The notes under the pieces were generated by a model. The model was not told the origin of the DNA, ran no database searches, and saw only the letters and a program-made list of their open reading frames with translations. From positions 39,980,243 through 40,044,242 of the forward strand of contig OZ017796.1 in assembly GCA_963969395.1 (NCBI GenBank): a DNA stretch of 64,000 nt, read 5' to 3'. Numbering within the stretch: the first letter of the stretch is position 1; every line of letters begins with the position of its first letter. Below are positions 1,325 to 55,442 of the stretch, in pieces. Source of the stretch: Pseudoscleropodium purum (Eukaryota > Streptophyta > Bryopsida > Hypnales > Brachytheciaceae). Both the position numbers and the translations under genes were made by a program.

Positions 1325-3148
1325 AACATTGATATTTGACTCAATGAATTTTCATTCAATTCTTTGGATTTTAAAAAAAACATCTTTACATTTCTTTGCA
1401 CATTCAGCTGTCTGGTTCCAGAATTAGCATAAAAGTTTGGTACTCCGTACTTCATGAAAAAAAAAAATCTAAACCACGCTTTCTAATGAAGTGCGGAGTA
1501 TAATGGCGTGCAAATTGCCGTGAACTGAAGAATTGCCTTGAACTTACCGAATGCCCATGGAGGACCACCGAATGACATGTCAAAAAAGGGCAAAAAGCTT
1601 AGTCGCCCTATAAAGTCCTCGGTCGCTGTACCGGAGTTCATCATTATCTCAGCAGATATCGGTTCCGGCAAATCTTACATCGAGACCCATCGACTCTTTA
1701 GCCTTCTAACGGACTGATGTTGCAGTTTCCCACAGAAATTTTCCAGAATTTTTGTTGATCAAATTATTAGTTTTCATGGCTTTCAAGCTTTTAAACGGAC
1801 TCATTTTGCGGTTTTCCAGAGAAATTTCGAAGAGTTTTAGTTCATCAAATAATTCGTTTTTTGGATGTCCACTTACAACTCTTTCGGAATGAAGACTTCC
1901 CATAATCCAAATACGAATTCTACATTATGCATGATCAAAATGGTCATTTTCAATTCGTGAATCATTGATGAAATCCATGAAATCCATTTTCGAGATTTAC
2001 ATCCATGGAATCTTGATACGTACGACAGAGGATGCGCATTCCAGGCTGCATCAAAAATCGTACTGGTCATCCCTGACTGTTAGAACATGTATGTAGCCGA
2101 AAATAGATCGCAAGCAAAAGGTTCAGGATTACAGTTATGTGGATTCTCATCACCAATTTCAGACTTTGATGGTACAAATAATCAGCACTGCAGACTTGCC
2201 ACCATACGTTCTCAGAACACGAAAAAGAACCATCAACCGAACTAGTTTACAGAGCTAACAACTAATCCACATTGTCTTCAGGGTCTGCTTGCTGTCAACA
2301 GTGCCTTGCGGCAATCAGGTCTCAAAAATTATAGACAACATCAACAGGCTCAAATAACGGAATTCGAAATAACAAGACTCAGAGATTAAAGCCGAAATGA
2401 AAAGATGACTTCGGCTGCACCCGTCAGGTAGTGATTCCAAGTTGGTAACAGCACAGCCGAAACTCTGATGACCGTCGTGATGCAAAATCTCATCAGATGG
2501 GCAAAAACAGAACATCTTTCCAATATTTCTATCAGTCAGTTCCTGATTCTCTCTGGCAAATGCCTCGTTTATACTTCAGAGTAACTGGAGAGCCAGCGGT
2601 TGACAAGAGTCAGCAGCGCTGCGTAACACCACGATAATACATCGCAATGCCAGCCGCACCAACAGTCACTTGAGCCTTAAACTCAGATTCGTCATTTAAA
2701 AGTCGTCATCACCGAGAATCCAAGACCGAAACCCTAAATCATAACAGAGATTCAAATACTGTGAAGACCAAACCAGATCGATGACTGCGATCCAAAAACA
2801 ATACCGAGGTCACATGTTGAAAAGACATTTAAGCATACATCAATGACCGGTAACACAAAAACAGAAAGCAGCTTGTCCCATCGATGAAGTTTCCAACTCA
2901 AGAGGTAAGATTCAACAAAATGACTGAAGAGAGGTAAATGCATCCCATTGGTGTAATGTGATTCAGTTTCATTGCACAGATGTTGAACCAATCTCATTGC
3001 ACAGATGAGAACCACTAACTAGGGAACCATGTACACTTCCGTCATCTGAAAGACAAGGAATTAATGAAGACTCATCACCAAAATCAGTTGCGCGCAGTTG
3101 GAAATGAAATCCTGAAATGGCTTCACTGCCAGCCCCACACCAACAGGT

Positions 3149-4374
3149 TCACGGTGCAGCACTCCACCGAAGTTCACACATCAAGACGTGCTCAATATCA
3201 TTGAAACAGTCATATCCAGGTATGGCCGGAAGGACGTGCCAATTGTAGGTAGACAAGTTGTATAGCCACACATGCAAATATTGATCACTACCCCCATACT
3301 TATGTGGCATAGGCTCATACTTATGAGCCAGGACCATCAAATATCCGTTGCAAGCTTCCAAATAGAAATAGTGGTCATCGTCTGGATAGCCATCTAAAGG
3401 CTCGCAACCGTGGGTTCCCCCTTCCACCCAAGCAGCGGCATTTCGCCGTAGATGATACTCGGAAATAATGAGCTTCAATGTAGGATTCTCTTGATTTAAA
3501 TTGGAAGGGTCTTCACGTTCCTCTGAGTACAAAATAAATAACCGGTCCTGAAACATCGCATACCTCACTGTATAAGGTGCATGCTCATGCTTTTTCGCAA
3601 TCGCAAAATCATAAACCGCACCTGTTAATTAGCAGCTGTTCTTCTGCAAAGTCTTGCAAACCTGGACCCCGGCGTCTTCCAATGGAACAATCACTGTCAG
3701 AACCCCAATCATAGACTTGCCCTGAAATGCAACCCCATGACTTCTCTCTTGATCCAACTATGCTCCACTCTTTGGTCTGAGAGTCATACACTTGAGTTAA
3801 GAGACCCTCGTTACCACTTTCAATGCAACCCACAAAATAAACCAGATAATGATTGTTTTTCCGGTTCATCTTGAGATGCAACATCGAGGTGCGAATGGTG
3901 GGCAACACATCATGCATGCCGAGTAAACGAGGGAGCTCAACTTTCTTTCCTGTTAACGGGTTCATCACAACTATAGTCAGGAAGTCCTTCGCAGTATTGG
4001 AAACAAAACAAACCAGTCCTCCATCGGCTGCACCAATTGTGAACTTCTCACCGACTGAAGGATCGATCTCACGGACACACCATCGGTCTTGGTTCACATC
4101 AAACATCCATATACCCGGCACACTCGGCGGCACAGCCCGCTTCGACTTCATCCCTATGGGACCAAACAGGTTCGGGTAAACTTGGTCTTCAAGCAACAGG
4201 TTAAAATGTGATTCTACCGAATCAATGGCTGCCTTCCAGAGCTTGGAAAGAAGGCGAAGCTGACTCATTTGAGCAGCAGGAAGACGAAGGAACACAAGGT
4301 CCAAGAGACAAGGTGTGAGAGTTCCCCATAGAGCAGGCTCCAAAGGCCGTCCACTTCAAACTTGGACAAGACAT
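3149..4374 (-). pseudogene. F-box gene, broken duplicate
   Basis: This is the inverted duplicate of the intact F-box gene at 25,563-26,822. The equivalent of its ATG lies at 4374-4372, but a 14-base deletion a few codons later shifts the frame, so the F-box segment (LWGTL..CLLDLVFLRLPAAQ) has no in-frame upstream ATG. A second lesion in the middle, around 3,570-3,700, removes the part corresponding to an acidic insert of the intact protein and shifts frame again, leaving separate open parts at 3609-4343 and 3149-3568. The N-terminal half is almost identical to the intact copy, while the C-terminal part differs at roughly one base in ten. A downstream methionine (MSQLR) could start a shortened product, but the second frameshift would still truncate it. 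Confidence 0.8.
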
Positions 4375-5067
4375 CCTAAAAGAAGCAAACAAGCCGTGAG
4401 CAAGAAAATGGGAAGATATGCGACTGAGCTTGTTAAGAAGTAAATAGAAAACTTTCCGGAAAAGTTAAACCTACTGGCTCCGGATTAAATTCTTCACTCA
4501 AGCAGCTAGGAGGCTGAAGTCAGGAATCAATCAATACTGGATTTCAGAATGGACCAAGTCGTTTTCAAACTGCGTGGAAATACGAAGCTATTGAAAACCC
4601 ACATGCATTAAGCTCCTAACGAAACTTGATAATGCGTGCCAACCACTGCGCCCAGAAGTTCATCAGCGCAAACATCCTTGACATACCAATGGCCAAGCTA
4701 GATCGAAATACGTTTTCCTTGATTCCGATCCCTCAAGAGAATACCAACAGTTTCCCAAACGATTTCATTTGCAGCAGGACGAAGAAGCTCATGAAGAAGC
4801 AATTGGAATTTGCTTGAAATGCAGGACAAGCTCAAATTAAACTGAAGCGAACATATTTTTCGAGAGTTTGAAACCCAGAGACAAACTTTAATTTCGGCAC
4901 GGACCAAGGCGCTTCCAATTGGTGATTGCAGAGCTCTCAGCTGCTCACGACATGTGCAGCACTCAAGATCCCCACGAAGATTGAGAATGCATCGGCTCCG
5001 TGCGCTCCAATTCAAAACTCGGATTGGGCACGTGCAGGGGCACGACGTTCAAGCCAGCCCACGAAGT

Positions 5068-8000
5068 CAAATCACAATGCACTCTAACTATGAACACAAG
5101 ATGTACTTATTACAAGAACGTTACACAATAGCTCAAACCACCCGACCATAGAGAGATCAATCTCCAAGAAAAGACTAACTCCTCACCCCTTAGCTCCATC
5201 TTATATCTTTGAGACTATTATAAAAACTATTAGTCCTTTATATAGACTAGGACTTCTTTTCTACTTATAGCCTTCTATCTATGGTTCTTTCTAAAACCAT
5301 TCACTAAAATAAAAGTCCTAGTTACACTTCCCCAAATTATATCTTATCTAAATCTCTTCTTTATATCTTAATCTTCTATTTGGAGTTATGTAACTCCAAG
5401 TTCCATTTGCTTGTCTTACTTACACAATTGCACAATATTACATAGTTTGAAAAGTGTATATCATATGGCATTGACAAATCTTGTAAGTAGTCAACTACAA
5501 AATTGTGTATTATTTGAGCTATTGAAACAATAATACATTATGATAAAATGCATTGGTTCTTTTTTCAAAAAGTTTGGATGGTTCTATAAACAATGATTAA
5601 ACAATGGCACAAATATCAATGAAGAATAGGAATTCAAATAACTATGTCAAGTATAGCATTTAATACAATAAATTAACCACATTCAAATTCCATTTGTAGG
5701 TTATTTTTCCAAAATATTGTTGTTTTCAATAATGAGAATACTTTGACATTAGAAGATTTTTGGGGCTTCCAAATGTCTTCGAGTTATCATAGTTTGTGAA
5801 CTCAAGGAATAGTACTATTGCAGTGGAATGACATGGCCGAGACCTTGCCACATCATTGTCCAAATTTTTTTATTTTTTTCTCAACTTTTTTTGGCATTTG
5901 AAGAATCAATTTTTTTTTTTTTAATATTTTTTTTCCTAATAGTAGGCCGTTTCCTCCATTGGGAGGAACAACTATGGGGGAACAAGCTAGAAATGGGCTT
6001 TTGGAGCCCCCCCAAATCTTCTAATGTATTCAATCATGTCTTATATGATATTGGTTCACATCTTGATATACTAGCAAAGGCACTAAATTCTCAAGGATTT
6101 TTCAATTGCACTCTAAACTCTATTGTTGTTCCATTTAGTTTAGAGATCTAAAAAAAGATAGTTCATTGTTTGGTTCATTGTCATTAAAGATGCTAATGTG
6201 GGTTTAATAATTCCCTACACCATTGCAATGATGATCCAAAAATGTCATCAAAGAGTGGAAAAAAAAAGAATCCCTTTCATTTGTAAACAACCTCATGCCT
6301 CCATGTATTAATTCATTGTATCATCCAAGTCCAAACATTTGAAGCCCTATTCCACTCTTAAACCTCCATGTGCCTTAAACTCATTACAACTTTCATTACA
6401 ATAGGATAGAATAGAGTGTAATTGCATCCAATTGTTGCGGTCAAGCAAGTGGACTTCTATCTTATGATTTGGGTCATGCTATGGAGCAAGGTAGGAATAC
6501 CATAAAATGGATAATTTAAGCATTTTAGCATATAGGATATGGGAAATTCATTGTGAAATTGAGCTCTCCATGTGCAAATACAAGGATGAGGAAGAGTGCC
6601 AAACAAAAGATGAATCCAGAATGAATATTTTATTCAAGATGAATGTAAACTTTTCATTTGAACCCAATCATGTCCCATGATTCAAGACACCCTATTGTAC
6701 CATTAGAGGGAACCTCTCCATTTATGGTATTCCTATCCTACGCTATTCCATTCCTGAGTCAAAAAAGTGTTTGAAAGCATTTGAGCTCTACAATGACTAC
6801 AATTTGAGTTATTCTATTGTATGGTGGTGTGGCCACAAAATAAAGGACAATTCAAGGCCCAAATGCTAAAGTAAAAAGCATAAAATGAACTTTAAAAGAA
6901 ATTTAGCCCGAAAAACCTTTCTCAAAAAACCACATGATCCATGTTAAGACCACATAGAATCTCTAAGTTCACACCTTGTGTGGACGAAAGTGATTAATTG
7001 TGTCCAGATTGGTCATCCTTGATGATGACAAATTGAAACAGAGACATACTGAAAAAATATTCTTGACTTTCAAGTTCTCCTGGTCTCAAACTTCCAATTG
7101 CAATTTTCTTCAAATGTAAGCCTACCCATGATTTCACTCATCCTATAACTAAAGCTGCTTTTACAAAACTCATGACCTCCTCGTAAACTATCCAAATGAC
7201 AAGAATTTTAGAGCACTGGAATCTCCTCAAGGTCACGAACTGAAGGTGACCCACACACCAAAAAATTAATAGAATATCCACTCCAAAATCAAACCTACTC
7301 ATATCTCCATGCATGTCTGGAGTGTGATACTGAGGATCAATATTGGTGTAGAGAAAATCGTCAATCACGCTCGACAACCTACAGAGAAACTCTCTAACCA
7401 AGACCAGCTTCCAAGATCTTACACGGTTCAGAAACAAGCAAAACTTCAAAATCAACAGATGGGAGTAGATACATTATATATCTATCACATTAAGCATTTA
7501 ACATATGAAGGAGGCTATTTGAGGGGAATTGTATGCAACCGTAAAGAGCCAAATCTCTTGAGATCAAATTTTTAGAACTACGTATGAGTTTCTTATGCAT
7601 TTTCAAAGTGAGAGGTTGTTGACCACTATTCCTTAGTGACTTGAGAACACCATTTCCATTCAAAGATCGGTCTGAGGTCATAGACCATTACGCAAGTTGT
7701 GCTTACACCACCTTGCTGTTGGTCATAATAGGAGACAAGATGAGATATCTAAAGGATTTCGTATCGTCAATGCTGCATACAAGTGTCGCCCTGGCCAGAT
7801 GAAATCCTACATACTAGTAGTTCCGACGTCATGGGCAACAATAGAGCAAACTCTGCCAAAGTTCTGGACGTATCGTTCGCTACAACTTCATGCAGAAGAA
7901 TGTCGAGCAGTTGCAGGGTACAGCACACAGATTATACTCGTACTTCCTAAGGTCATTCAAGAGCAGTGATTTGTAAAAAAAACGATCTGACAATGGACAT

Positions 8001-9203
8001 TTCAAGAAAGGGTAACTAAAACTTTGGAAAACTGTTTTGGCTTCAAGAAAAGAAAAAGTTATTACATTTTGTGTTGCAATCATCTATCAACAGACAAAGG
8101 CAGACAACCTGAAAGTTCAAACTCACTGTTCCCATAAAGCCAAAAATATAACGCCATTCAATTATAAAGGAGGCGCAGTGCTTTCAACCCAGTGCAGAGG
8201 TGATCATCCAACGATACCCAAGAGAACATGATACGACTACAAAAATCTCCATTTCGGACCACGGATACCTATGCCCAAGAGATTCCAAGCGTGGAGCAAG
8301 CATGATGACCATTGCGACTTGAAGTGCACCCTCCAGAAAGGTTGGTCCAATCAAAATTGAAACGCGCCAGGAACCCGACAGTTCACGTCATCTGAGATCT
8401 TCGATGGACAAAAGCAGGAGAGTGCTGCTGATGTTGACTTTGCGAATACAGTGCGACATATGTGAGCACATTGGGCATTGCAAGCCTTCACGTTGGACTC
8501 GTGAGCTGCAATCAGAAGCATAATCAGAGCATAATCAGTCGTTTTCAAAACAAAATTACTAATGCCATGTCACCACCGTGAAACAGGGATCTACACAATC
8601 TCGAATTGAATTGAATCTTGCAGGAGTGATCGACTTGACTTAAATCGTTCAACACACTCAAAGAACATGGTGAGAACATTCATCGTATTTGTGAAAGACT
8701 TACGAGCCAGATGGGAAGTGATGAAGAGAAACGACTTGTCGTCGAATTGTAACCGAACGGCTGCAGCATCCTTCTGTTTACCCACAACACCACTCGGACA
8801 CTTCTCCCACACTTTGTCCACGTTCACACCTGCTTCCCAACAGCACGCAATCAGGACCTCTGCCGAGGTCTGAGATTTCGATCCTGGGCTTTCGAATTCT
8901 GAGACTTTGATCTTGGGTTTGGGGATTTTGTGAGGCGGATTCTAGGGTTCTGAGTTCCGATTGCTGCGGTTTCGATGAGACATTTTTGTGATTTCAAAAT
9001 TTTGAAACAGACAGCACTGCATGCCGAGGAGCATCGTCGGAGCACGGCGCACGAGCTTGCTGCGCCTGGTTGAGAACCGGGTGAGCGGGTATGTGATAGC
9101 GGGTGGATGAAGAGGTGGGCAGTGGGCGGGCAGAAGGCTGGGGTTTCGAGGGAGGGCAGCGGGCAACAGGCGTTTCCTTTAATCCCACTGAGACTTAGTG
9201 CCG
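5068..9203. other. 4.1 kb segment present only in copy 1
   Basis: In copy 2 the sequences matching 5067 and 9204 are separated by only about 20 unrelated bases (24,043-24,062), whereas here they are 4,136 bases apart. The left two thirds (5,150-7,700) are AT-rich with no recognisable gene; a short plus-strand frame ending near 7,970 was not identified. The right part holds two exon-like pieces of a 5-phosphatase gene on the minus strand, and 8,850-9,200 is GC-richer and resembles a leader region. The segment may be an insertion into copy 1 or the remnant of something deleted from copy 2. No terminal inverted repeats or target duplication were seen at its ends. Confidence 0.6.
8387..8859 (-). 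pseudogene. Inositol polyphosphate 5-phosphatase-like gene fragment
   Basis: Two exon-like pieces read on the minus strand. The first (about 8859-8704) encodes a stretch ending AAVRLQFDDKSFLFITSHLA and stops at a GT donor (C|GTAAGTC). The second begins at 8505 after a tgcag acceptor and continues HESNVKACNAQCAHICRTVF. Joined in phase they resemble the 5-phosphatase core, where a GNKG-type glycine motif precedes a (V/A)xRF(Q) strand, then SHLAAH, then a conserved RNxDYxxI. Here GNKG is replaced by GKQKD, the second alanine of SHLAAH becomes proline, and the arginine of RN becomes cysteine. The later catalytic GDLNYR and SDHxP motifs were not found nearby. It is therefore most likely a decayed or captured fragment, not a working enzyme. 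Exon limits are approximate. Confidence 0.5.
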
Positions 9204-10182
9204 AGGTAACGATCAAGGCATTGTTAATGAAAAAGTTGCCAAAAGTAACTGCAGTTGGGCTCCACTGACCTCAGTTCAGCTCAGGGAGCCAACTCATTTC
9301 TGACCACTTAAGGAGTTTGTGGTATCTGCAAGGCTGATTTTTTCACAGGATAAATTTCAGCATGTGTAGAAATAGGCATTAGAAGGTATGCATAGTTTTT
9401 CAGATTTTTTTTCCTCAACATAGAATTACTGTGAATTTTTTAGTGGAATATGGACTTGCTTCCATTCTGATGATGTAGACCCTCCTCTCTCCAACCAAGA
9501 GCTGGTTGCAATATTGAAAGTCTTGTTCGCCAATCATAATGTACCACAGATGTGTGAAAATTGCATCATAATTAATTGATGTGGAATTGTTAATTCTTTT
9601 GCACAAAAAGATAATAGCCTACATATTTAGAATGGGGGTGACAGTTAGGAATGGGTTGCCTCTCATAATGACATGATGCCCATGGCCAGCTTTCTTTTAA
9701 ATCTACTCCACAAAATAGGCTAGACTTTTGCAAATTTTGAATGCTAGATGTTCATAAAAAAAAGGGCCAGTTTATACTTGGGGACAGATTGAAGGCCAAT
9801 TGGAATTCTCTAAGTTTAAAATAATAGTATCACTCAATTTCTCCAAATTAGGCCCAAGGGTTTTATACTTAAGGCTAGATAGAACTACAACTCATCTTAC
9901 GTGTTACCTTAGGTAGCATGGTTTGGGCACCAAATCTTCCAATCCTAAGGGAGCAATCAGAATAAAGTTTTGGGTGGCCCAAACTCCCATCTAGGGTCTG
10001 ATTGGGCTCTTCCATTGGATTGCACAAATCTCCACCATTCAATTTGTTCCTAAAGATTTTTTTTTTTTAAAATCCAAGAAACATCCAATGAATCAACCCA
10101 ATTCTTAGGAAGATTATATTGACCTCATTGCATGTAGTGAAGTGGACTCAACTATGACTTCCAAGTAGTTGGGTGCAGGTTG
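9204..10182. other. Duplicated AT-rich spacer, no gene
   Basis: Both parts of this spacer recur in copy 2 (9204-9312 at 23,917-24,042, and 9314-10,182 at 32,497-33,371). It has no supportable coding frame. Position 9313 is the point at which copy 2 is opened. The divergence from copy 2 is high, roughly 15-20% by eye, as expected for unconstrained sequence. Confidence 0.6.
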
Positions 10183-12462
10183 TTTTTTTCATTTTTTATG
10201 AAGTGCCAAAGTAGCCATATAAAATGTTATAGTGGTGATCCAAATTTTTACATTCATTCACATATCGGATAGAGAATATCACATTGGTATATATCTCATA
10301 TCTATAATTTTGTTTCAAACACAATTTGACAATTTCATCCAATTTTTTTTTTCTTAACCTAAAGTTTTTTGGCAAAAAACTTCATAAACTAACATTGTTT
10401 ATTAGCCAAAATATTTTTTTCTTGTGCAATCTAACACTATAAAAGATAAAAAAACAAACCACGGTTGGGTGGTAGGATAGACTAGAATTGATGAGACTCA
10501 AATGTGCAATTTCATTTTTAATTCCCAATTATATCCTCAAGTTTTAAAATCTAAATGTAGTTCAACTTTAGAAAATTTTGCTTGGATTCCTAAGTTCTAC
10601 GACTATGTTTTCACCAAAAACACTCAAAAACTACCATTTTTAGTATAAATAACAAATTTTTGAAAAAAAACTTTTTTTTGACACTTGAAAACATAGGATC
10701 CTGTAGCATAGTAACTTAAAAACCTGTGGTTAAAGTTTTCAAGATTTCCATACTATGGATTGTAAGATATAAGCATTCAGATTTGCTAAAATTATTTTCT
10801 TGTTCTTACAAAAAACAACGCAGCTACACTTCACAAGCTCACTCTTCTACCAAAAAATGTTCAAAATGGTGGTACTTCTTTGGATTCTCTTTCCTAGAAA
10901 AGTTTTTCACATGCTTGAAAATTTTCAAATCATTTGGAATTGTACAGCATATAAGAAAAAGATAGTAAGTAGACAATAGTTGAAAATGATTCAAAAAACT
11001 AAATTGTTAAAAATGAAATTATGGAATTGAAAAATGCCAATTCCAATGGTTGGAATGTTGTAATAAACAATTTACATCCTATGATTTTATTTTATTTCAA
11101 AAATATTAAAAATTGAGTAAAATCAATAACTTCAAAGTTTATTTTAGAGTAGAAAATCCATAACTACCCGCAAATAAAAAATCCTCATAACTTTTAACTC
11201 ATTGATCAAAATGGATTGATTCAAATCTTTTCATGTATATATAATTCTAGAAAATCAATTTTAAATTTTTTTCTAAAAGAAGTAATTTTTTCTGATTTGC
11301 CCAAATTGCCCATTTACAAAAAAAAGCAATATATTAGCTATAACTTTTGACTCTTATTTTCAATTGTCATAAAATTTAGTGCATATGAAAGATATTCCTT
11401 GTCTTCACCTTCTATTAAAATTTGGATCAAAGATCTAAAAATCTCTAATCACACACACTTGCCCAAAAATTTTATATAGCCAAAAAATGTAGCTTGGTCC
11501 TTTAATTCGGATTTTATTGAATTCTTAAAAAAAAAATTATTTAAAAATAGAAAATAATAAAAAGCATTCACAATTAAAAAAAATTTAGAAAACTGAAATA
11601 TATTATATATTTTTGTACAAATAATTCTACTGTTATTTATGTATAATTGTTCTTACCAAATAACATGAGATGTTTATTTGATACATGTTTAATAATACAA
11701 AAATTTGATACATTTTTTATTCTACTTGTTTGAAGATGAGATATTAAATTGGTTCCATCTACTAATTTGTTCTATTTACATTATATGTTTATTTGGTTAA
11801 CAACAATGGTTTTAGGGTATAATTTTTAGACACGTTCCTTGTTAGAATATAATATGCAAATGAAAGTCACTTTGTTGAAGTTATGTGACAGATTTTGACA
11901 TCTGTGAGATGATGTGTGAATTTACTAATTTCAATTACAGATACTTGAAAAAAGAATATGATAAAGAAAGATTATGGTATTAGGAACAATATATATGGTA
12001 AAACCTGATTTACATTTACCATTGAATTCTCTCAGAATAAAAATTTACATATTTAAAAAAAATTAGAAAAAGTTAAAATATAGATACAAAAGAAATTGAC
12101 AAAAGAGATGTTTTCTTGAATTGTGAGTTTAGTTGTGTGATTATTTTCAAACCATTAAAGTCACAAGGCCAAAACTATTAATTTGTTTGAATTTCTTGAA
12201 ATTTTTATGAAAATAAATAACAACTAATTATTGTAGAATAATTTGGCTAAAAAATGATGGTGATTTATGAAGTTTTTTGTTAGAAAACTTCAAATTGAGA
12301 AAAAAATCTTGAATGAAGTCATTAGATTGTGGATGAAAATAAAATTATAGATATGTGATATATGCTAGTGTGATATTTTCTATTGAATGTTGAAATTTGG
12401 AGCACCACTATAACATTTTAGATCGCCACTTTGGCACTTCATAAAAAATGATAAAAAAAAAA
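10183..12462. mobile_element. Non-autonomous TIR DNA transposon, copy in duplication arm 1
   Basis: The ends are long inverted repeats. From the left edge inward and from the right edge inward (reverse complement) both read poly-T, then tcattttttatgaagtgcca, followed by similar sequence for at least 150 bases, including the motif aaaatgttatagtggtg. The 2.3 kb interior is very AT-rich and has no transposase frame, so it would depend on an element elsewhere. It lacks about 480 bases near its right end that are present in the copy 2 version, and those extra bases extend the inverted repeat to roughly 240 bases. Long terminal repeats suggest a Mutator-like element, but no clear 9-base target duplication was seen, so the superfamily is open. 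Confidence 0.7.
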
Positions 12463-13536
12463 GCCCTGCTGTCGAGGTTCGTATTGCAGTTGCTAATCAC
12501 TCTGCATTGGTAATTGGGACTCACAGCATTACATGTGGTGAAGCTGGATCACCGAACTGAGGACGGATTTGAGAGCCTCCATGCCGAGCTAAATGCCGAG
12601 CAATGCCAAGTTTTCTGCAGAAGTCTTGTGATTTAGGGTTTCGATTCATCAGAAGCCAAGTTTTGACGGTTGCTGCACACTTTGGACCTTCGTTACTTGG
12701 GAACCAGCATGGATTCTCGTCCTGCTGAAAGACTTGATATTTTAGGTTAGGTGTGGTCTTGGCAGAGGGAGGTTGCTATGATTCTTTCGGTTGCTTGATA
12801 ACTTGGGTTGATGATAATGTTGGAATGGCGAGAGAGTGCAGGCACCGATCCACCGTTTGAAGTTTGTATGCTGGTTCTTTGTGGAAAGGTGAAAATTGGA
12901 GCGTTCCTACTTTCTGCCATTGCAGTCAGAATTCTGGCTGACAGGTCGTTGCTTCGCATTCCCACGCTCAATCCAGACCTCGTGGGATAGGGTTTAGAAG
13001 CCTAGCAGCAATCAAGGGAGCTGTTAACATTTAGATGCATGATTAAGTGCAAACTGCTCAGAATCAGACGAAGCCCACTGGGCTAATGTGCAGGCGTCTT
13101 TTTGAGGAATGGAGTGTGGAGTAGAAGGGCATGGCAGAGCGGATTCTTAGCATGCGCCATCAACTCTATGATGCTTTGCAGGCTCCTTGTGGGTTACCCT
13201 TTCTCAGCAGGGATCACTACTTTGAGAAATCTCGAAGTTGCAGGTGCGCACCTCATACCAAAGCATAGTAGTTTGGAGAAGGGAATAGAACGGAGCAGAT
13301 TCATTGATACGTATTTGCTGCTTTCTCAAGGTTTCTGAAGCAGAATTCATTTGGTGGGGGCGAAGTCTTCGAGGGATTGATTTGTACACTTCCTGCAGAT
13401 AAGAAGTTAGATTTTCGTTTGCGGTGTAGCAGAGTAACATTCCTTTCATGGTTTGGATGCCGAGCGACAAATGTTTGCATTCGTGCGCCGTGGGCAACAA
13501 CGGAGAGGTCTTTTGGTGTGTGGAGCTGGTGCACAG
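12463..13536 (+). other. Presumed 5' leader exon of the PPR gene, near-identical in both copies
   Basis: This block starts exactly at the edge of the TIR element and ends at a consensus donor (GCACAG|GTGAGT at 13,536/13,537). It is moderately GC-rich, unlike its surroundings, contains leader-like gtgatttagggtttcgattc, and lies upstream of the PPR frame with further splice-like sites between. By eye it is essentially identical to the reverse complement of 28,367-29,438. Short frames on both strands (for example 60 and 78 codons on plus, 122 on minus) are preserved only because the whole block is. I infer an untranslated exon; a non-coding RNA is the alternative. Confidence 0.45.
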
Positions 13537-23916: not shown

Positions 23917-23990
23917 TAAGTGGTCAGAAATGGGTTGGCTCCCTTAACTGAGCTGAACTGAAGTTAGTGAAGTGCAGTTAGTGGAGCCCA
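23883..23990 (+). repeat. Possible tRNA-derived (SINE-like) head spanning the copy 2 left boundary
   Basis: The phrase tggtgcagttgg fits the pol III A-box pattern, and about 45 bases later ggtcagaaatgggttggctc resembles a degraded T-arm/B-box with one base missing. Together they look like a decayed tRNA-related SINE head. The duplication boundary (23,917) falls between the two boxes: copy 1 has the second half but not the first. This is a weak, partial match. Confidence 0.25.
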
Positions 23991-24415
23991 ACTGCAGTTA
24001 CTTTTGGCAACTTTTTCATCAACTATGCCTTGATCGTTACCTTAAACACCTACGGGGCCGCCACTTCGTAGGTTGGCTTTAACGTCGTGCCGCCCAATCC
24101 GAGTTTTGAATTGGAGAGCGCGGAGCCGATCCATTCTCAATCTTCGTGGGGATGTTGAGTGCTGCACATGTCGTGAACAGCTGAGAGCTCTGCAATCTCC
24201 AATTTAAAGCGCCTTGGTCCGTGCCGAATTTAAGGTTTCTCTCTGGGCTTCAAACTCTCGAAAAATATGTTCGCTTCAGTTTCGTTCAATTTGAGCTTTC
24301 CTGCATTTCAAGAAACTTCAATTGCTTCTTCGTCCTGCTGCGAACGACTTGGTCCATTCTGAAATCCGTTTGGGAAACTGTTGGTATTCTCTTGAGGGAT
24401 CGGAATCAAGGAAAC

Positions 24416-24578
24416 GTTAGAGCCAGCGGAAAAATTTGAGGCACACATATCCCTGTCCTGTTGACAATCCGGGGAACCGGGAATGGCTGGCTATCCGGGA
24501 ACTATAGATAATCTCTCGGTGCTCATTAGTGTATCTCATTCTTTGTTTTGCGACCTCACTTCTCATCATTCTGCAGAG
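24416..24578 (+). other. 163-base GT-AG segment present only in copy 2
   Basis: Copy 1 reads through the equivalent site without it (aaggaaaacgtatttcg at 4720-4704), while copy 2 has aaggaaac, then GTTAG...CTGCAGAG, then gtatttcg. The segment begins GT, ends AG and has a pyrimidine-rich tract before its end, so it can be read as an intron in the F-box leader. It could equally be a small insertion, since the expected splice at CAG would not give exactly the copy 1 sequence. Confidence 0.45.
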
Positions 24579-24689
24579 GTATTTCGATCTAGCTTGGCCA
24601 TTGGTATCTCAAGGATGTTTGCGCTGATGAACTTCTGGGCGCAGTGGTTGGCATGCATTATCAAGTTTCGTTAGGAGCTTAATGCATGT

Positions 24690-25545
24690 GGGTTTTCAAT
24701 AGCTTCGTTTCTCCTCGCAGTTTGGAAACGACTTGGTCCATTCTGAAATCCATTATTGATTGATTCCTGACTTCTGTCTCCTAGCTGCTTGAGCGAAGAA
24801 TTTAATTGGAAGCCAGTTGGTTCAACTATCCGAGAAATTTTCAATTTATTCTTCACGAGCTTAGTCGCATATCTTCCCATTTCCTCATCAGACAGGTATT
24901 TAAGGCCCGAGGAGGAATAATGGGGACTTATGCGGATGAACTTCGATATTTAGCATATAATGTACTAGTTTCTGGGCCATTGCAGACGATTCAATAGATG
25001 CCCTAAGATCAACAGAGCAAAGTGAATCGCAGGAGGTGGAGTTTGACACATGCTGACTTGTTTGAACTGTGGGGAGCAACGCGTGTATATAGGGTTTGGT
25101 TCTATCAGGCAGAAAAATTTAGGTATGGCTTGCATAAATTCTGTGCTAACAACAATAGTGTTATACGCAGCCAGTTGCAGTGTATTCGGATCGAGGCTTC
25201 GTTCATGAAGAGATTTAGGATTAATGAATGAATTGCAGAACGTTTAACGCATATCTGGCTGCGACTGAGTCTGTATTAACAAGGGAACCGCCGTAATCAG
25301 CGCAACGTTAGAATGACTAGCCCCCAGCGTCACCCTAAACCACTCACCAATCCCGAAAGTGCAAACCTTCATGCAGTTCGGAATCGACTTGGTCCATTCC
25401 GAAATCCAGTTTTGATCCCGGACATAGTCTCGTAACTGCTTGAGTGAAGAATTTAATTCGGAGCCAGTAGGTTCAACTTTTTCGGAAAGTTTTTAATCTC
25501 TTCACGAGCTTAGTCGCATATCTTCCCATTTTCTTGCTCACGGCT
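24690..25545 (+). repeat. Direct repeat, period about 650 bases, upstream of the intact F-box gene
   Basis: A stretch of about 150 bases at 24,735-24,890 recurs at 25,385-25,540, sharing gacttggtccattc, gcttgag, gaagaattta and gagcttagtcgcatatcttc. Copy 1 has only one such unit (around 4,390-4,600); its upstream part matches the first repeat here and its downstream part matches the second. Copy 1 therefore looks like a crossover product between the repeats, unless copy 2 gained a duplication. Confidence 0.65.
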
Positions 25546-25562
25546 TGTTTGCTTCTTTTAGG

Positions 25563-26822
25563 ATGTCTTGTCCAAGTTTGAAGAGGACGGCCTTGGCGTT
25601 GGAGGACTTGGAGCCTGCTCTATGGGGAACTCTCACACCTTGTCTCTTGGACCTTGTGTTCCTTCGTCTTCCTGCTGCTCAAATGAGTCAGCTTCGCCTT
25701 CTTTCCAAGCTCTGGAAGGCAGCCATTGATTCGGTAGAATCACATTTTAACCTGTTGCTTGAAGACCAAGTTTACCCGAACCTGTTTGGTCTCACAGGGA
25801 TGAAGTCGAAGCGGGCTGTGCCGCCGAATGTGCCGGGTATATGGATGTTTGATGTGAACCAAGACCGATGGTGTGTCCGTGAGATCGATCCTTCAGTCGG
25901 TGAGAAGTTCACAATTGGTGCAGCCGATGGAGGACTGGTTTGTTTTGTTTCCAATACTGCGAAGGACTTCCTGACTATAGTTGTGATGAACCCGTTAACA
26001 GGAAAGAAAGTTGAGCTCCCTCGTTTACTCGGCATGCATGATGTGTTGCCCACCATTCGCACCTCGATGTTGCATCTCAAGATGAACCGGAAAAACAATC
26101 ATTATCTGGTTTATTTTGTGGGCTGCATTGAAAGTGGTAACGAGGGTCTCTTAGCTCAAGTGTATGACTCTCAGACCAAAGAGTGGAGTATAGTGGGATC
26201 AAGAGAGAAGTCATGGGGTTGCATTTCAGGGCACTTGTATGATTGGGGTAACTTCATTGATTCCAACGGTGATTCTGACTACCCTGCCGATGGAATTTAC
26301 GATGGAAGACGCCGGGGTCCAGGTTTGTATGACTTTGCACAAGAAGAGCTGCCAACAGCTGCGATTTATGATGGCGCGATTGCGAATGCAAATTCGAGTG
26401 AGAATGAGCATGCACCTTATACAGTGAGGTATACGATGTTTCGGGACCGGTTATTTCTTTTGCACTCAGAGGAACTTGAAAATCCTTCCAATTTGAATCA
26501 GGAGAATCCTACATTTAAGCTCATTATTTCCGAGTATCATCTTCAGCGAAATGCCGCTGCTTGGGTGGAAGGGGGAACCCACGGTTGCGAGCCTTTAGAT
26601 GGCTATTCAGAAGATGACCACGATTTCTATTTGGAAGCATGCAACGGATATTTGATAGTCACGGCACATAATTTTTTGCATAGTGATCAATATTTGCATG
26701 CGTGGCTATATAACTTGTCTACCTACAGTTGGCACGTCCTTCCGGACATACCTGGATATGACTATTACAATAGTCAAGAGCACGTCTTGATGTGTGAACT
26801 TCGGTGGAGTGCTACACCGTGA
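25563..26822 (+). CDS. F-box protein with C-terminal kelch/F-box-associated-like region
   Basis: The frame of 419 residues starts at the ATG at 25,563, directly after an acceptor-like ttctttta-g|g, so the leader is probably spliced. Residues about 20-58 form an F-box (LWGTLTPCLLDLVFLRLPAA..SQLRLLSKLWKAA), the module that binds SKP1 in SCF ubiquitin ligases. The remainder has hydrophobic strands with conserved tryptophans (WMFDVNQDRWCV, VYDSQTKEWSIVGS, LYNLSTYSWHVLP), the pattern of a kelch-like or F-box-associated beta-propeller that would recognise a substrate. An acidic, tyrosine- and aspartate-rich insert lies at about 240-290. The substrate is unknown. The gene is the intact partner of the broken copy at 3149-4374 and is likely the functional member. 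Confidence 0.85.
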   Translation: MSCPSLKRTALALEDLEPALWGTLTPCLLDLVFLRLPAAQMSQLRLLSKLWKAAIDSVESHFNLLLEDQVYPNLFGLTGMKSKRAVPPNVPGIWMFDVNQDRWCVREIDPSVGEKFTIGAADGGLVCFVSNTAKDFLTIVVMNPLTGKKVELPRLLGMHDVLPTIRTSMLHLKMNRKNNHYLVYFVGCIESGNEGLLAQVYDSQTKEWSIVGSREKSWGCISGHLYDWGNFIDSNGDSDYPADGIYDGRRRGPGLYDFAQEELPTAAIYDGAIANANSSENEHAPYTVRYTMFRDRLFLLHSEELENPSNLNQENPTFKLIISEYHLQRNAAAWVEGGTHGCEPLDGYSEDDHDFYLEACNGYLIVTAHNFLHSDQYLHAWLYNLSTYSWHVLPDIPGYDYYNSQEHVLMCELRWSATP

Positions 26823-28366
26823 ACCTGTTTATGTGAGGTTTTGTTGAATCTTACCACTTGAGTTGGAAACTTCATCGAGTTGGACATGCTGCCTTTCTGT
26901 TTTTATGTTACCGGTCATTAATGTATGCTTAAATGTCTTTTCAACATGTGACCTAGGTCTTGTTTTTGGATTGTATATGAATTTCTGATCTGATTTGGGG
27001 TTTCGGTCTTGGGTTCTCGGTGATGACGACTTTTAGATGACGAATCTGAGTTTTAAGGCGCAAGTGACTGTTGGTGCGGCTGGCACTGCGATGTGTTATC
27101 GTGGTGTTACGCGGCGCTGCTGACTCTTGTCAACCGCTGGTTCTCCAGTTCCTCCGAAGCCTAAACGAGGCATTTTCCTGGGAGAATCAGGAACTGAATG
27201 ATAGAAATATTGGAAAGATGTTCTGTTTTTGCCCATCTGATGAGATTTTCCATCACGACGGTCATCAGAGTTTCGGCTATGCTGTTACCAACTTGGAATC
27301 ACTGCCTGTCGGGTGCAGCCGAAGTCATCTTTTCATTTCGGCTTTAATCTCTGAGTCTTGTTATTTCGAATTCCGTTATTTGAGCCTGCTGATGTTGTCT
27401 ATAATCTTTGAGACCTGATTGCCGCAAGGCACTGTTGACAGCAAGCAGACCCTGAAGGCTACGTGAACTAGTTGTGGCTATGTAAACTAGTTCGGTTGAT
27501 GGTTCTTTTTGGTGGTTTGAGAACGTATGGTGGCACGCCTGCAGTGCTGATTATTTGTAGCATCAAAGCCTGAAATTGGTGATGAAAATCCACATAACTG
27601 TAATCCTGAGCTTTTTGCTTGCGATCAAATGTACGGCTAGCAGTCATATTTTAATAGTGTCTTTGGAATGCGCACCATCAGATTCCATGGATTCAATCGA
27701 TGATTTGAGATTAGAAAATGACCATTTAGATTGAGCGTATTGTGGAACTCGGAATAGGATTACGGGAAATCTTGTTTTGCGAAAGACTTGCAAGTGTACA
27801 TCCAGAAGAACTCATTATTTGATCGAACTAGAATTCTGCAAAGCTTCTCTGGAAAACTGCAACAAGAGTCCGTTAGAAGGCTTAGAAGTCAATGGGTCTC
27901 GAAGTAAGATTGCCCTGTAACCGACGCTCATGCTGAAGCAGATAAAGATAAATTCCGGTGCGGTGAACAGAGAGTTTCATGGGGTGACTCATCTTTATGC
28001 CCTTCAGTCTTTTCACATGTCGTTCGGCGGTTCTCCACGGCAAGTTGAAGGCAATTTGGACACTACTGTGCTTGGATAGAAGGTTCGGCTTAAATTTTTT
28101 TTCTTAAAGTGTTGAATTTTTCTGCTAATTCCATGACCAGACAATCAAATCTACAAATAGAAGTAAAAGATAGTTATTCCAAAATGCAAAGAATCCAATG
28201 ACAATCCACTGAGTGAAACACCAATTTATCATAAAACCGATCTCAAATAAACAAAGATTACAAAAAGTAAAAAATGAACCTCAAATACCAAATTCTCTTT
28301 TAAAAAGGGGCATAAATTTCCGTATAAGCATGTGTTCGAACATAAGTCAATCAACACTCACTCACT
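26823..28366. other. F-box 3' region and permutation junction
   Basis: This stretch follows the F-box stop and matches copy 1 positions 3148-1325. A frame at 27,071-27,418 has a shorter counterpart in copy 1 but no recognisable domain and is probably untranslated. At about 28,235-28,240 the homology jumps to the other end of copy 1 (about 13,655), which is the joined-ends junction of the permuted duplicate. Confidence 0.6.
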
Positions 28367-29438
28367 TGTGCACCAGCTCCACACACCAAAAGACCTCTCC
28401 GTTGTTGCCCACGGCGCACGAATGCAAACATTTGTCGCTCGGCATCCAAACCATGAAAGGAATGTTACTCTGCTACACCGCAAACGAAAATCTAACTTCT
28501 TATCTGCAGGAAGTGTACAAATCAATCCCTCGAAGACTTCGCCCCCACCAAATGAATTCTGCTTCAGAAACCTTGAGAAAGCAGCAAATACGTATCAATG
28601 AATCTGCTCCGTTCTATTCCCTTCTCCAAACTACTATGCTTTGGTATGAGGTGCGCACCTGCAACTTCGAGATTTCTCAAAGTAGTGATCCCTGCTGAGA
28701 AAGGGTAACCCACAAGGAGCCTGCAAAGCATCATAGAGTTGATGGCGCATGCTAAGAATCCGCTCTGCCATGCCCTTCTACTCCACACTCCATTCCTCAA
28801 AAAGACGCCTGCACATTAGCCCAGTGGGCTTCGTCTGATTCTGAGCAGTTTGCACTTAATCATGCATCTAAATGTTAACAGCTCCCTTGATTGCTGCTAG
28901 GCTTCTAAACCCTATCCCACGAGGTCTGGATTGAGCGTGGGAATGCGAAGCAACGACCTGTCAGCCAGAATTCTGACTGCAATGGCAGAAAGTAGGAACG
29001 CTCCAATTTTCACCTTTCCACAAAGAACCAGCATACAAACTTCAAACGGTGGATCGGTGCCTGCACTCTCTCGCCATTCCAACATTATCATCAACCCAAG
29101 TTATCAAGCAACCGAAAGAATCATAGCAACCTCCCTCTGCCAAGACCACACCTAACCTAAAATATCAAGTCTTTCAGCAGGACGAGAATCCATGCTGGTT
29201 CCCAAGTAACGAAGGTCCAAAGTGTGCAGCAACCGTCAAAACTTGGCTTCTGATGAATCGAAACCCTAAATCACAAGACTTCTGCAGAAAACTTGGCATT
29301 GCTCGGCATTTAGCTCGGCATGGAGGCTCTCAAATCCGTCCTCAGTTCGGTGATCCAGCTTCACCACATGTAATGCTGTGAGTCCCAATTACCAATGCAG
29401 AGTGATTAGCAACTGCAATACGAACCTCGACAGCAGGG
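28367..29438 (-). repeat. Near-identical copy of the PPR leader block
   Basis: It is the reverse complement of 12,463-13,536 with essentially no differences seen by eye, although sequence on both sides differs markedly. The base just before the donor is changed (copy 1 GCACAG|GTGAG, here GCACAAGTGAG), which would weaken splicing. There is no PPR coding region next to it. Frames of 161 codons (plus) and 60 and 78 codons (minus) mirror copy 1 and are not evidence for proteins. Confidence 0.75.
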
Positions 29439-29439
29439 C

Positions 29440-32400
29440 TTTTTTTTAATCATTTTTTATTATGAAGTGCCAAAGTGGCGATCTAAAATGTTATAGTGGT
29501 GCTCCAAATTTCAACATTCAATAGAAAATATCACACCAGCACATATCACATATCTATAATTTTATTTTCATCCACAATCTAATGATTTCATTCAAGACTT
29601 TTTTCTTAATTCGAAGTTTTCTAGCAAAAAACTTCATAAATTGTCATCATTTTTTAGCCAAAAATTACTATTTTCTAGTGCAATTTGGCACCATAAAGTC
29701 AAACAAAAGGTTGTTCTAAACACCTTCTTAAAGATGGGTTTATACTATGTCTAGGGTTGAAAGGAAGGCAAGCTAGATTTCCTTTCAATTGAGCCCTCTA
29801 TCCAACCCTAGTTAATGATAAGCCCTTGGGATAGATTTTAGGGCCAAATTTCCAATTCATATGCTCTTGGATTTTCTCAATGCTCAATTAAATAATATAT
29901 AAAAATATACATATTTATCGGGGGGGTTTTCCTATTTTAAAAAAAGATCTTATTTTTTTATTTTTTTATTTTTCTTCCTATTTGTTCTATTTCTAAAATA
30001 GAAGAAAAAGTGTTTTTGCTTTTTATAACCTACTTTGTTCTCTTCTGATTTTTTCTATTTGAAAAAAAAAAAGGAGTTCTTTGAATGAATTCTTTTAAAC
30101 CTTTTCCTTTTGTTTAATGTTGAAATTAGAGTTGAAGCCCTAAAGTAGTTGTCATTTATTTTCATGAGAACTTGAAAAATTTCAAAAAATTAATAGTTTT
30201 GGTCTTGTAACTTTAAGGGTTTGAAAATAATCACACAACAAAATTCACAATTCAAAAAATCATCTCTGTTTTTTATCTCAGTTTTTATCTATATTTTCCT
30301 TTTTATTTATTTTTTTAAATGTAAATTTCTTTTTTGTTATGAGAACTTAAATGAATTCAATAGTAAATGTAAATCAGGTTTTACCATACATATTATTTCC
30401 AGTAATATAATCTTTGTTTCTCATATTCTTTATTCAGGTATCTATCATCGAAATTGGTAAATTCACACATCATCTCACACAGATGTCAAAGTCCGTTACA
30501 TAACTTCAACAAAATGACTTTCATTTATATTTTTTTTGACAAGAAATGTACCTAAAAATTGTACCAAAAAACCATTGTTCTAAACCAAATAAACATCCCA
30601 TGTAAATGGAACCAATTAGTAGATGGAACCAAATTAACATCTCATGTTCAAACAAGTAGAATAAGAAATGTAATAATTTTTTTTTATTATTAAGCATGTA
30701 CCACATAAACATCCAATGTTATTTGGTAAAAAGAATTATATATAAATAATAGTAGAATTATCTATATGAGTATAAAATATATTTAAGTTTCTTAAAAATT
30801 ATTTTATTTTGAATGCTTTTTATTATTATTTTTTTAATAAATGTTTTCTTAAGAATTCAATAAACCTTCAATTAAAAGACCAAGCTGGTTTTTTTGGCTA
30901 TATAAAAATTCTGGGCATGTGTGTGTGACTAGATTTTCATATAGTTTTGACTAAAATTTTAATAGAAGGTGACAACAAGGAATATCTCTCATATGTGCTA
31001 AATTTTATGACATTTTAAAATAGGAGTCAAAAGTTATAGCCTAATATGTTGCTTTGTTTTGTAAATGGACAATTTGGATAAATAAATAAAAATTACTTTT
31101 TTTAGAAACAAGAATTTGAAATTGGTTTTTGAAAATTATATATGCATGAAAAGCTTTGAATCATTCTTTTTTTATCAATGAGTCGAAAGTTACGAGGAAT
31201 TTTTGTTTTGTGGGTAGTTTTGGTTTTTCTACTCTTAGATAAACTTTGAAGTCCACAACCTTAATCAATTTTCAATATTTAAAAAATAAATAAAATCATA
31301 GGATGTAGATTGTTTATTACAACATTTCCAACCATTATTATTGGCATTTTTTAATTTTCATAATTTAATTCTTAACAATTTAGTATTTTGAATCATTCTC
31401 TACTATTATCTACTTACTATTATTTTCCTACATGTTGTACAATTCAAAATAATTTGAAAATTTTCAAGCATGTAAAAAACTTGTTTAGGAAAAAGAATCC
31501 AAAAAGCACCACCATTCTAGACATTTTTTTGTAGAAAAGTGAGCTTGTGAAGTATATCTGCCTTGTTTTTTGGAGGGCCTAAAAAATGATTATTACAAAA
31601 AATTTCAACCCTCAGGAGGTTTGCGAGTTTTGAACCCCTTGGGTGCAATTATAGAGGAAATAATATTGTTTTTATTTTTTATTAATTTTTAATGAAAGTT
31701 GATGATGTGGCATTACTTGTGCCACATCAACACCACATCAAGTTTTCATACTTTTATTTTTTTATTTTTTTAATATATATAGAGAGAGAGATTGAGTGTA
31801 AAAAAATTATTTTTTTAATTTTCTATACTTACATTACGGGGCGCCAAAAAAAAAATCCTTAATGGCCCTCCGTAGGGTTCAAATTTTTTCTAATGTTCAA
31901 TAAATTTGAATGCTTATATCTTGCAATCCACGTTGGAGAAAATTTTGAAATTTTTACCACATGTTGTTAAGTTATTATTCAACAAGATCCTATGGTTACA
32001 AGTGTCAAAAAATTCAAAAAAATTTTACTTATATTAAAAGTGGCAATTTTTGAGCATTTCCAATGAAAACATAGTCAAAGAACTTTAGCATTTAAAGCAA
32101 AATTTTCTAAAGTTGAATAAAATTGAGATTTAGAAAATTGAAGATATAATTGGGAATTAATAATCAAATGCACTTTTGAGTCTCATTAATCCTAATCTAT
32201 TCCACCACCCAACCATGGTTTTTTTTTTTTGGCTTTATAGTCCTAGATTGCACAAGAAAAAAATATTTTGGCTAAAAAACGATGTCAATTTATAAAAAAT
32301 TTTGACTGAAAAATTCATATTAAAAAAAAAATCTTGGATGAAATTGTCACATTGTGGATGAAAACAAAATTGTAGATATGTTATATATACCAATGTGATA

Positions 32401-32496
32401 TTTTCTATCCAATACATGAATGAATGTTGAAATTTGGAGCACTACTATAACCTTTTATATGGCTACTTTGGCACTTTATAAAAAATGAAAAAAAAA
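29440..32496. mobile_element. Non-autonomous TIR DNA transposon, copy in duplication arm 2
   Basis: This is the 3.06 kb counterpart of 10,183-12,462 in inverted orientation. It keeps about 480 bases (29,670-30,150) lost from copy 1, which makes its terminal repeats longer: the inner phrases tttagccaaaa and tagtgcaatttggcaccata near 29,650-29,695 mirror ggctttatag...gattgcacaagaaaaaa and attttggctaaaa near 32,230-32,275. It also contains a 300-base MITE. No transposase frame is present. Confidence 0.7.
31572..31871. mobile_element. MITE with GGAGGGCC terminal repeats
   Basis: The insert begins GGAGGGCCTAA and ends with the inverse TTAATGGCCCTCC. Copy 1 lacks it at the equivalent site near 10,800, where gttttttg runs straight into taagaac, so the empty site is seen directly. 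It must have inserted after the duplication, or been lost cleanly from copy 1. It is 300 bases long, contains a poly-AT interior with a short GA run, and has no coding capacity. No clear target duplication was found. Confidence 0.6.
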
Positions 32497-35400
32497 CCTT
32501 GCATCCAACCACTTTGAACTTATGGTTGAGTTCACTTCACCACTTGCAATGGGATCAACTTAATCTTCCTAAGAATTGGGTTGATTCAATTGGTGTTTCT
32601 TGGATTTTTTATTTAAAATCTTTGGAAACAAATAGAATGGTGGAGATTTGTACAATCCAATGGAAGAGCCCAATCCACTCCTAGATGGGGGTGGGCCACC
32701 CCAATCTTGTCTTAATTGCTTCCTTAGGATTGGAAGATTTGGCGCCCAAACCATGCTACCTAAGGTAATATGTAAGATGAGTTGTAGTTCCATCCGGCCC
32801 CAATCATAAAGCCCTTGGGCCAAAATTGGAGAAATTGAGTGGTCATATTGGTTCAAACTTGGAGAGTTTTGGTTGGCCTTCAATCCAGCCCTAGTATAAA
32901 CCAACCTTTTTTTTTTCTCAACATCCGGCATTCAAAATTTGCAAAAATCTAACCTACTAGGCCAGCTTTGAGGATTGGATTTCAGAAAAAAAAACCCATC
33001 ATGGGTACCATGTCATTGTGAGAGGCAACCCATTCCTAATTGTCAACCCTATTCAAAATATGTAGGCTATTCTCTTTCTATACAAAAGAATTAACAATTC
33101 CACAACAATGAATTATGGTGTAGTTTCTGAACCGCTCTAGTACATTATGATTGGCTAACAAGACTCTCAATATTGCAACCAACTCTTGGTTGGAAAGAAG
33201 GTTTACATTACCAAAATGGAAGCAAGCCCATCTTCAATAAAATTTTTACAGTAATTCTATGTTATGTTGAGGAAAAAATTATGAGAAATTATGCATACCT
33301 TCTAATGCCTATTTCTACACATACAAGAATTTACCTTGTGAATAAATTAGCCTTGTAGATACCACAAACTACTTTAGCATGAGCAAAACAATTAATGAAA
33401 ATGTTTGTTTTTATTAACATGTTCATGAGTTTCAAACTTGAAAATGGTATGGTCCCTATTATTTAAATTGTCAATTATGTTTAACCTTGCTGGCAATTGT
33501 AATGGAATGGTACTCTACAATGATTTCTCTTTGATAATATATTTTTGATATGATGTGCATAAATTATGATTTTGAAAATGTTGACTTACAGGACATTGAC
33601 CCTAGGTTCTCATATTCTAAGGGTTTATGTTTTAGGATAGAATCTAAAGAGATAAGTAATTTCGTTAAAATGGCAGTTTGAATAGTTTAGACTGCACATC
33701 TTGAAGTGTTTTTTCTGTACTAGAATCTATACTTGTTATAGATTTTGAAATCTACATATCTCCTAGATATCTAAAATCTTATACCAATCCTAGATTTTTC
33801 AGATTGCTTGGTCTAATATCTATGTTTGTCCTAGATTTCTGAAATCTAAAACTGACCTAGATGTTAGCAATGTATACTTGTCCTAGATGTCAAGATGTCA
33901 AAATGGCATTTGGAATACCGCCAATTTAACAAAATTTGCCAAAGAGACAATCTTAGTAACATTGTTGAAATTAAGTATATTTACCTTAATATAAAGATTC
34001 ATTCAAAATGAATACTCAAATTAATTAAAATAGTGCAAGATCCCCTATTAAATGAATATATTTGGATGAATTTTGAATGAATGTCATCTAATTTATTTAG
34101 TGTGAATATATAATTGAAGTTTTACTAACTAAGATGGACAGAATTAAGATGAAATGAAGATAAAATTAGGATGAAAACAAATGAAAATTAAATAACTATT
34201 ACACAATTTGAGCCATTGTATTAAAATAGTGTAGACCACATTGATTAGAGTTCTTATATAAACATGAAATGTAGCCATCTGCTTGGTCCATAGTTTACTT
34301 TTTATTCTAAATGTCAATTGAATTTTTATTCAACTTGCATTTTGGGGACAATGACAACAAAGAGTAATGAAATTATTGTTATTGAAACAACAACAAAACA
34401 TGATCAAGTTATTATTATTATTGCATGGCATTTAATTGAATTAACTCAATTACACTACATATGAGTTAGTTTCATAAATAATCAAGCAAAATTTGAAGCA
34501 TGTCCCAAACCAATAGCCCTCCCAAAGGAATTTACTTGAAGTTTATAGTTCTCAATGAAATGCCAAAAATCATAAAATTTTCTAATATCATAGTCGACAT
34601 GGCTTTCATTTTTGCAATGACAATTTTTTTTTTTTTTTCCACCCAAAGTGGCTTGTTTACAGTTATATTATTTAAAGATGATTTTAGTTATGTAGTCTTG
34701 TAAATATTTCACAATTCGTCATTTCTTTATTGTAAATGAATTTCACATATTTTCAAATATAAAAGAATCATGAAAGCAAAAATATATAATTACTAAAATT
34801 TTGTTTATAGGTGGAAGAGTGGGCCTTGAAATAGTTCAATTTGTAAAGTGGTTCAATTTGTTAACACTGGATTTATTAAAAGCATTTTGATATTTGTGAA
34901 TATGAATGCCAATTAATGTGATTCATGTATTGCACTAACTCTTGTTCATCTAAGCAAAGTGCTAAAGAGTTACACACTCTTAAATACCATCATAATCATG
35001 TTAGCCACCAATTCTAAAACCTTCTAACATTGGCCCTTTATTAGTGAAGTTTTTGACAAGGCTCTTACTTATTTTCTTTAAATTTTGTTATTTGTTTCAT
35101 AAATTTTTATAAAAATTCGAATCTTACACTAATGAATTCCTCAGTGATAAAAAAACAAAAGCCATGTCACATTGTGGAAATCTGAAAATTAACAATGACG
35201 TTATGTAAGTACAGTCTGAATTCCATGTCCGCACACAAGTGTTTAAAAGTGAAAGTTTGGAAAAAGTAAAAAGGCCTCGACTGTTTACAACCGGACCCCG
35301 ACGATCGAGAACCAGTACGTCGGGGTATGTGCTTCCAACATTATACCCGAACCCGACGATCGAGAACCACGATATCAGGGTATATGCAGCAACTGGTTCC

Positions 35401-49825: not shown

Positions 49826-55442
<5,617 letters not shown>

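Follow-up and report, generated by a model that had tools for sequence, protein, structure and literature searches.

We analysed a window of 64,000 nucleotides from the moss Pseudoscleropodium purum (contig OZ017796.1 of assembly GCA_963969395.1, C40:39980243-40044242), which belongs to a genome of 313 Mb in 52 contigs and contains zero N. The window carries two copies of one chromosomal segment that includes an F-box gene, and the copies are separated by a ~10.3 kb spacer with a long PPR-DYW reading frame (14867-17635), within which four tandem units of ~303 bp lie at 15528-16737. Self-BLAST of the window revealed that copy 1 consists of block B followed by block A, whereas copy 2, taken from 33377 downwards on the minus strand, has A first and then B (Table 1). 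Both blocks are thus inverted and their order is swapped, while their orientation relative to each other is unchanged; the outer ends of copy 1 are brought together inside copy 2, and the outer ends of copy 2 meet at 9307-9312 in copy 1.

In block A, the copy 2 segments 33377-31902, 31599-30143 and 29662-28247 match copy 1 at 9307-10784, 10782-12229 and 12242-13655, respectively. In block B, the segments 28225-28115, 28056-27809, 27891-26839, 26838-25370, 24885-24579, 24414-24063 and 24042-23915 match copy 1 at 1328-1437, 1531-1772, 1777-2920, 3133-4576, 4403-4711, 4714-5067 and 9204-9312, respectively. The best E-values are 0.0, which rules out chance similarity, and this rotated, inverted collinearity is what a preliminary description of the sequence had proposed. 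Its two-copy layout stands and its exact limits shift, copy 1 starting at 1328 instead of 1,325 and copy 2 occupying 23915-33377 instead of 23,917-33,371. Only 20 bp stand in copy 2 at the place of the 4.1 kb stretch of copy 1.

Table 1. Coordinates of the features in the window
Feature	Position	Strand	Evidence or remark
Copy 1, probable donor arrangement, B then A	1328..13655	+	Self-comparison; donor status from genome-wide repeat comparisons
Block B in copy 1	1328..9312	+	Includes the copy-1-only 5068-9203
Stretch only in copy 1	5068..9203	.	4.1 kb
Block A in copy 1	9307..13655	+
Copy 2, probable derivative, inverted	23915..33377	-	A then B on minus strand
Block B in copy 2	23915..28225	-
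Putative closing scar	28226..28246	.	21 bp; flanked by the former donor ends 13655 and 1328
Block A in copy 2	28247..33377	-
Dispersed MITE-like repeat, ~385 bp	9283..9667	+	Genome search; across opening point in copy 1
First ~30 bp of MITE-like repeat, copy 2 left end	23915..23946	-	14 other genomic matches
Remainder of MITE-like repeat, copy 2 right end	33017..33377	-	Inner limit approximate
Multicopy gene-like family	13361..14167	+	Genome search; across copy 1 right edge (13655), truncated in copy 2
F-box gene in copy 1	3149..4355	-	Frame broken
F-box gene in copy 2	25563..26822	+	PF00646; open frame, 419 codons from first ATG
Element with ~240 bp inverted end repeats, both copies	10180..12460 (and 29440-32496)	.

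Donor and derivative arrangements

The B/A border of copy 1 lies within a dispersed repeat, which we call MITE-like (miniature inverted-repeat transposable element) because its ends resemble, by eye, imperfect inverted repeats. The region 9250-10170 was compared with the whole genome; in this search, as in the other genome-wide searches, only the best-scoring candidates were scored (the best 40 per search unless 20/20 is given), here 40 of 1063. Besides copy 1 (whole) and copy 2 (from 9307 onwards), 39 matches were listed, all of which cross the border between 9312 and 9313; 38 of them start at 9280-9292 and one at 9305, and 30 end at 9657-9670. Because every listed relative crosses this point, the repeat at the border of copy 1 is a complete one. 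In copy 2, its two parts stand ~9.5 kb apart at opposite ends of the copy, and the complementarity of these parts is independent of which candidates were scored.

The left end of copy 2 was compared separately with the region 23000-24060 (20/20 candidates scored), which gave 18 matches apart from the window and copy 1. Of these, 14 are to the short repeat end, all starting at 23914-23917, and four lie at query positions 441-535; the left flank of copy 2 at query positions 501-915 has no relatives in the genome by this search. Two repeat members match at 23 of 28 and 22 of 26 bases to the left of the break, whereas, the query excluded, no more than 18 bases match at any of 194,000 one-strand control positions.

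A second comparison concerned the right edge of copy 1, where a multicopy gene-like family spans 13655. The region 13300-14300 gave 49 matches, with the best 40 of 90 candidates scored. Nine places outside the window are listed as matching inside block A (13361-13584), and all nine also match all or part of 13905-14167, beyond the block, with strand and order unchanged and a start-to-start spacing that differs from that of copy 1 by -63 to +35 bp. The outside matches listed number 38, of which 29 have no listed inside match; since inside matches were found beside outside ones, places that match only inside may be under-sampled. The match of copy 2 to this family stops at 13655 (28247 in copy 2). 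By eye, the family looks like pieces of a spliced gene, with an exon end near 13540 and an exon near 14058-14139. Its translation is reminiscent of the PDF motif of plant OSB proteins, but a Pfam search of two of its reading frames found no domain. On the left side, a repeat at 1000-1259 was considered as a sign of the ancestral flank and rejected, being dispersed in the genome and ending short of the left edge at 1328.

Since the order of copy 1 at both 9313 and 13655 is the order found in the listed genomic relatives, these comparisons point to copy 1 as the donor and copy 2 as the derivative, which are told apart here by relatives in the same genome instead of by outgroup species. The preliminary description had left the parent copy open; the two separate genome comparisons, at 9312 and 13655, now both favour copy 1. 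In the reverse case, copy 2 would be the parent and the joining of its ends would have made copy 1, which fits the open F-box frame of copy 2 and the broken one of copy 1. However, such joining would have to restore both the full dispersed repeat and the uninterrupted multicopy gene-like unit that spans 13655, and derived indels occur in both F-box copies, so that gene integrity does not decide parentage. We consider this reversal very improbable.

Junctions, divergence and a putative circular intermediate

Around the opening point, copy 1 is matched up to 9312 by the left end of copy 2 (23915) and from ~9307 by the right end (33377). A break-position likelihood, which uses match probabilities set by us, yields a posterior for the number of bases common to the two ends that is broad (1-14) and peaks at 6, and a posterior of 0.036 for a right start at 9314, the position that corresponds to the loss of one base. 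The left break is pinned at 23915 (corresponding to 9312) by the other genomic matches to the repeat end, which start at 23914-23917 in 14 of 14 cases. With the left break fixed there, a right start at 9307-9310, that is, 3-6 shared bases, is most probable, and the loss of about one base at the opening that had been proposed earlier gives way to this sharing.

At the closing point, the former ends of copy 1 do meet in copy 2 as the preliminary description had placed them (at about 28,238), but they are not joined directly, as 21 bp of scar lie between them. The best match of these 21 bp elsewhere in the window is 15/21; 200 shuffled 21-mers average 14.8 and reach at most 17, and templating of the scar from within the window was therefore rejected. 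The 1-kb surroundings of the six breakpoints, compared at E 0.01, show only donor-derivative matches and none within a copy; recombination between repeats was rejected because the breakpoints share no homology at this threshold. At 9312 and 13655 the block ends do not coincide with element ends, as they should in a transposon-borne duplication: 9312 lies ~30 bp inside a repeat and 13655 inside the multicopy unit. An AT-rich weak match starting at 1329 was not adopted as a repeat boundary. The right flank of copy 2 contains a high-copy dispersed repeat (33659-33941), 88-92% identical to most of its listed relatives, that does not cross the junction.

The identity between the copies is a mosaic of 72-100%. 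Per 200 bp, it is 78-87% in 9307-12199, 72-81% in 1328-2199 and 98.5-99.5% in 3800-4399, and the Kimura two-parameter distance (K80) is 0.13 for block A and 0.108 for the main part of block B. A run of 1082 identical columns extends over 12454-13535 (~28367-29448 in copy 2), compared with a maximum of 109 in 2000 permutations, and the sequence next to it differs by 13-22%. Identical runs of 294 and 193 columns also occur within 3829-4352 (permutation maximum 121). The final 56 columns before 13655 have 89% identity, so the converted tract stops short of this edge. This mosaic is naturally read as the outcome of repeated conversion between the inverted copies, and the age of the event cannot be read from the mean divergence. 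We regard the 1082-column run as recent gene conversion, an assembly effect being less likely. Such a run could hide a collapsed or copied stretch, but the window has zero N, the copies diverge by as much as 28% per 200 bp and the junctions sit in sequences without homology to each other; we attach a very slight probability to the locus as a whole being an assembly artefact.

From the assembled sequence we infer that copy 2 probably derives from copy 1 via a one-unit circular DNA. End joining would have linked the donor ends 13655 and 1328, with ~21 bp added or altered, after which the circle would have broken ~30 bp inside the MITE-like repeat. The opened circle would then have inserted in reverse ~10 kb away with a microhomology or micro-duplication of ~3-6 bp, and the copies would have diverged afterwards with repeated gene conversion between them. 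The circle would have measured ~8.2 or ~12.3 kb, depending on whether 5068-9203 was inserted in copy 1 or deleted from copy 2. We prefer the one-unit circle because single breaks explain every junction with the fewest coincidences, and the re-insertion of a circle suggested by the preliminary description is supported in this sense.

The same block order would also result if an inverted array of at least two units were cut back to a single rotated unit by trimming at one and the same place on either side, without any circle, and tandem duplication plus partial deletion is named as a typical false positive in PMC7188851. As had been argued before, this trimming requires two coinciding breaks; under a uniform model, the chance that two independent breaks fall within ±6 bp is ~0.11-0.16%. 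Furthermore, only copies 1 and 2 cover most of three probes from the right part of A, the F-box part of B and the left part of A; no third copy, and hence no sign of an array, was seen among the best-scoring genome candidates, in evidence that does not take in the 10 kb upstream. The idea that the repeat-rich region C1 26.0-26.2 Mb is an earlier copy of the entire unit was rejected, as matches there are limited to dispersed elements and a piece of 0.5 kb. Array trimming is unlikely in our view. A single linear replicative template switch, by microhomology-mediated break-induced replication (MMBIR) or fork stalling and template switching (FoSTeS), would run from 9313 to 13655, back to 1328 and end at 9312. 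It fits the microhomology and the short scars, and end joining and MMBIR are inseparable by breakpoint features according to PMC7450558, but copying would have to end within a few bases of its start, which a circle explains for free; we judge this route distinctly improbable.

Several points weigh against the one-unit circle with copy 1 as its donor. The circle is inferred from the assembled sequence of one genome. The evidence for donor continuity is confined to 9313 and 13655, and, with the best 40 of 1063 candidates scored, relatives of the MITE-like repeat that stop at the break could have been missed. In addition, the least converted parts disagree, with a divergence of ~13-22% in 9307-12199 versus 19-28% in 1328-2199; one clean event fits these values only with early conversion or rate differences, which counts mildly against it.

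The F-box gene and other content

At least four further relatives of the F-box gene exist, two at C1:36.38 Mb and others at C42:12.40 and 12.48 Mb. In 15 F-box pairs, no marked excess of differences at the third codon position was found (26/26/21 for copy 1 versus copy 2; 106/100/122 at the largest), and codon-position bias was accordingly rejected as an indication that the F-box copies are under constraint. The copy 2 gene has a derived 21 bp deletion of a sequence that is kept in five of five others, as well as a probable 33 bp insertion that is absent from copy 1 and both C1 relatives, and the copy 1 gene has a 14 bp deletion of its own. Next to the gene, 212 bp (2921-3132) occur in copy 1 only; because the ~120 bp on the F-box side are present in the C1 relatives, these were lost from copy 2. 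A second F-box pair of the same family, C42:12394454-12396989 and C42:12479502-12482100, stands in opposite orientation ~84 kb apart with 91% identity.

The element with inverted end repeats in block A is older than the duplication, since it is present in both copies. Its end is dispersed in the genome, with at least 36 other matching places, and it has no clear target-site duplication; 41359-42004 is a diverged piece of its inside. Elsewhere, C1:26053712-26054949 and C1:26143367-26144610 form a direct duplication of 1.24 kb with 98.6% identity, 90 kb apart, which includes a 0.5 kb relative of 12740-13233. The window also contains an Arf-family small GTPase exon at 37272-37613 (PF00025, E 3e-11) and short interstitial AAACCCT-type (plant telomere-like) repeats at 51047-51082. 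A tRNA scan and an Rfam scan were both empty.

Relation to known circle-mediated duplications

According to the preliminary description, such events are known in animals and a plant case readable base by base is uncommon. They have been reported for cattle, human and yeast, and no plant case of this kind was among the papers listed by searches of an open-access library, a scope that excludes subscription journals and preprints and gives weak evidence of absence. In the case of cattle, the colour-sided KIT translocations reportedly arose through circular intermediates (Durkin et al. 2012, as described in PMC7450558); they resemble the present proposal in this respect and differ as animal, large and recent events. 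In plants, the Palmer amaranth EPSPS replicon is described as a gene-carrying circular DNA; it is a maintained circle, unlike the re-inserted chromosomal segment proposed here.

In human, 24 circular-DNA-mediated segmental duplication pairs (cSDPs) were found, of which 16 were characterised and eight have resolved breakpoints, with 1-2 bp microhomologies and scars or indels of 1-27 bp at the junctions (PMC7450558). They share with the present locus the swapped block order, the microhomology with short indels, breakpoints often in dispersed repeats, and the lack of homology between breakpoints. However, the human pairs measure 22-3918 kb, lie at least 0.09 Mb apart and had their donors found with other primates (PMC7450558), whereas the present pair is from a plant, measures 8-12 kb, lies ~10 kb apart, is inverted and strongly gene-converted, and has its donor identified from dispersed repeats. 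Three strong candidates for human duplications mediated by extrachromosomal circular DNA (eccDNA), with the same dot-plot signature as this locus, are given in PMC7188851, and some of the common false positives named there were considered here.

The Zygosaccharomyces segment in wine yeast likewise shows circle-based insertion by non-homologous joining, with 2-3 bp shared at its junctions, but it is 17 kb long, horizontally acquired, has a functional autonomously replicating sequence (ARS) and occurs in many recent copies (PMC3053389). A paper on Arabidopsis eccDNA, PMC10462705, states that circles of transposable elements are usually viewed as a dead end; as cases in which integration has been suggested it mentions yeast, cattle and cancer cells.

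The locus adds an unusual lineage and an outgroup-free test of polarity to the known duplications by circle re-insertion, and it additionally displays strong gene conversion between inverted copies. We tentatively suggest that it may be a base-resolved, polarised germ-line duplication of a chromosomal gene segment in a plant via a re-inserted circle, in which dispersed repeats identify the donor without the help of an outgroup species. Where the opening point splits a dispersed repeat, that repeat could likewise distinguish donor and derivative in other rotated pairs of long-read plant assemblies, and a polarised plant case makes eccDNA re-insertion testable as a source of fixed duplicates. 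Should there be more such cases, gene families of bryophytes would regularly grow locally by the re-insertion of circles.

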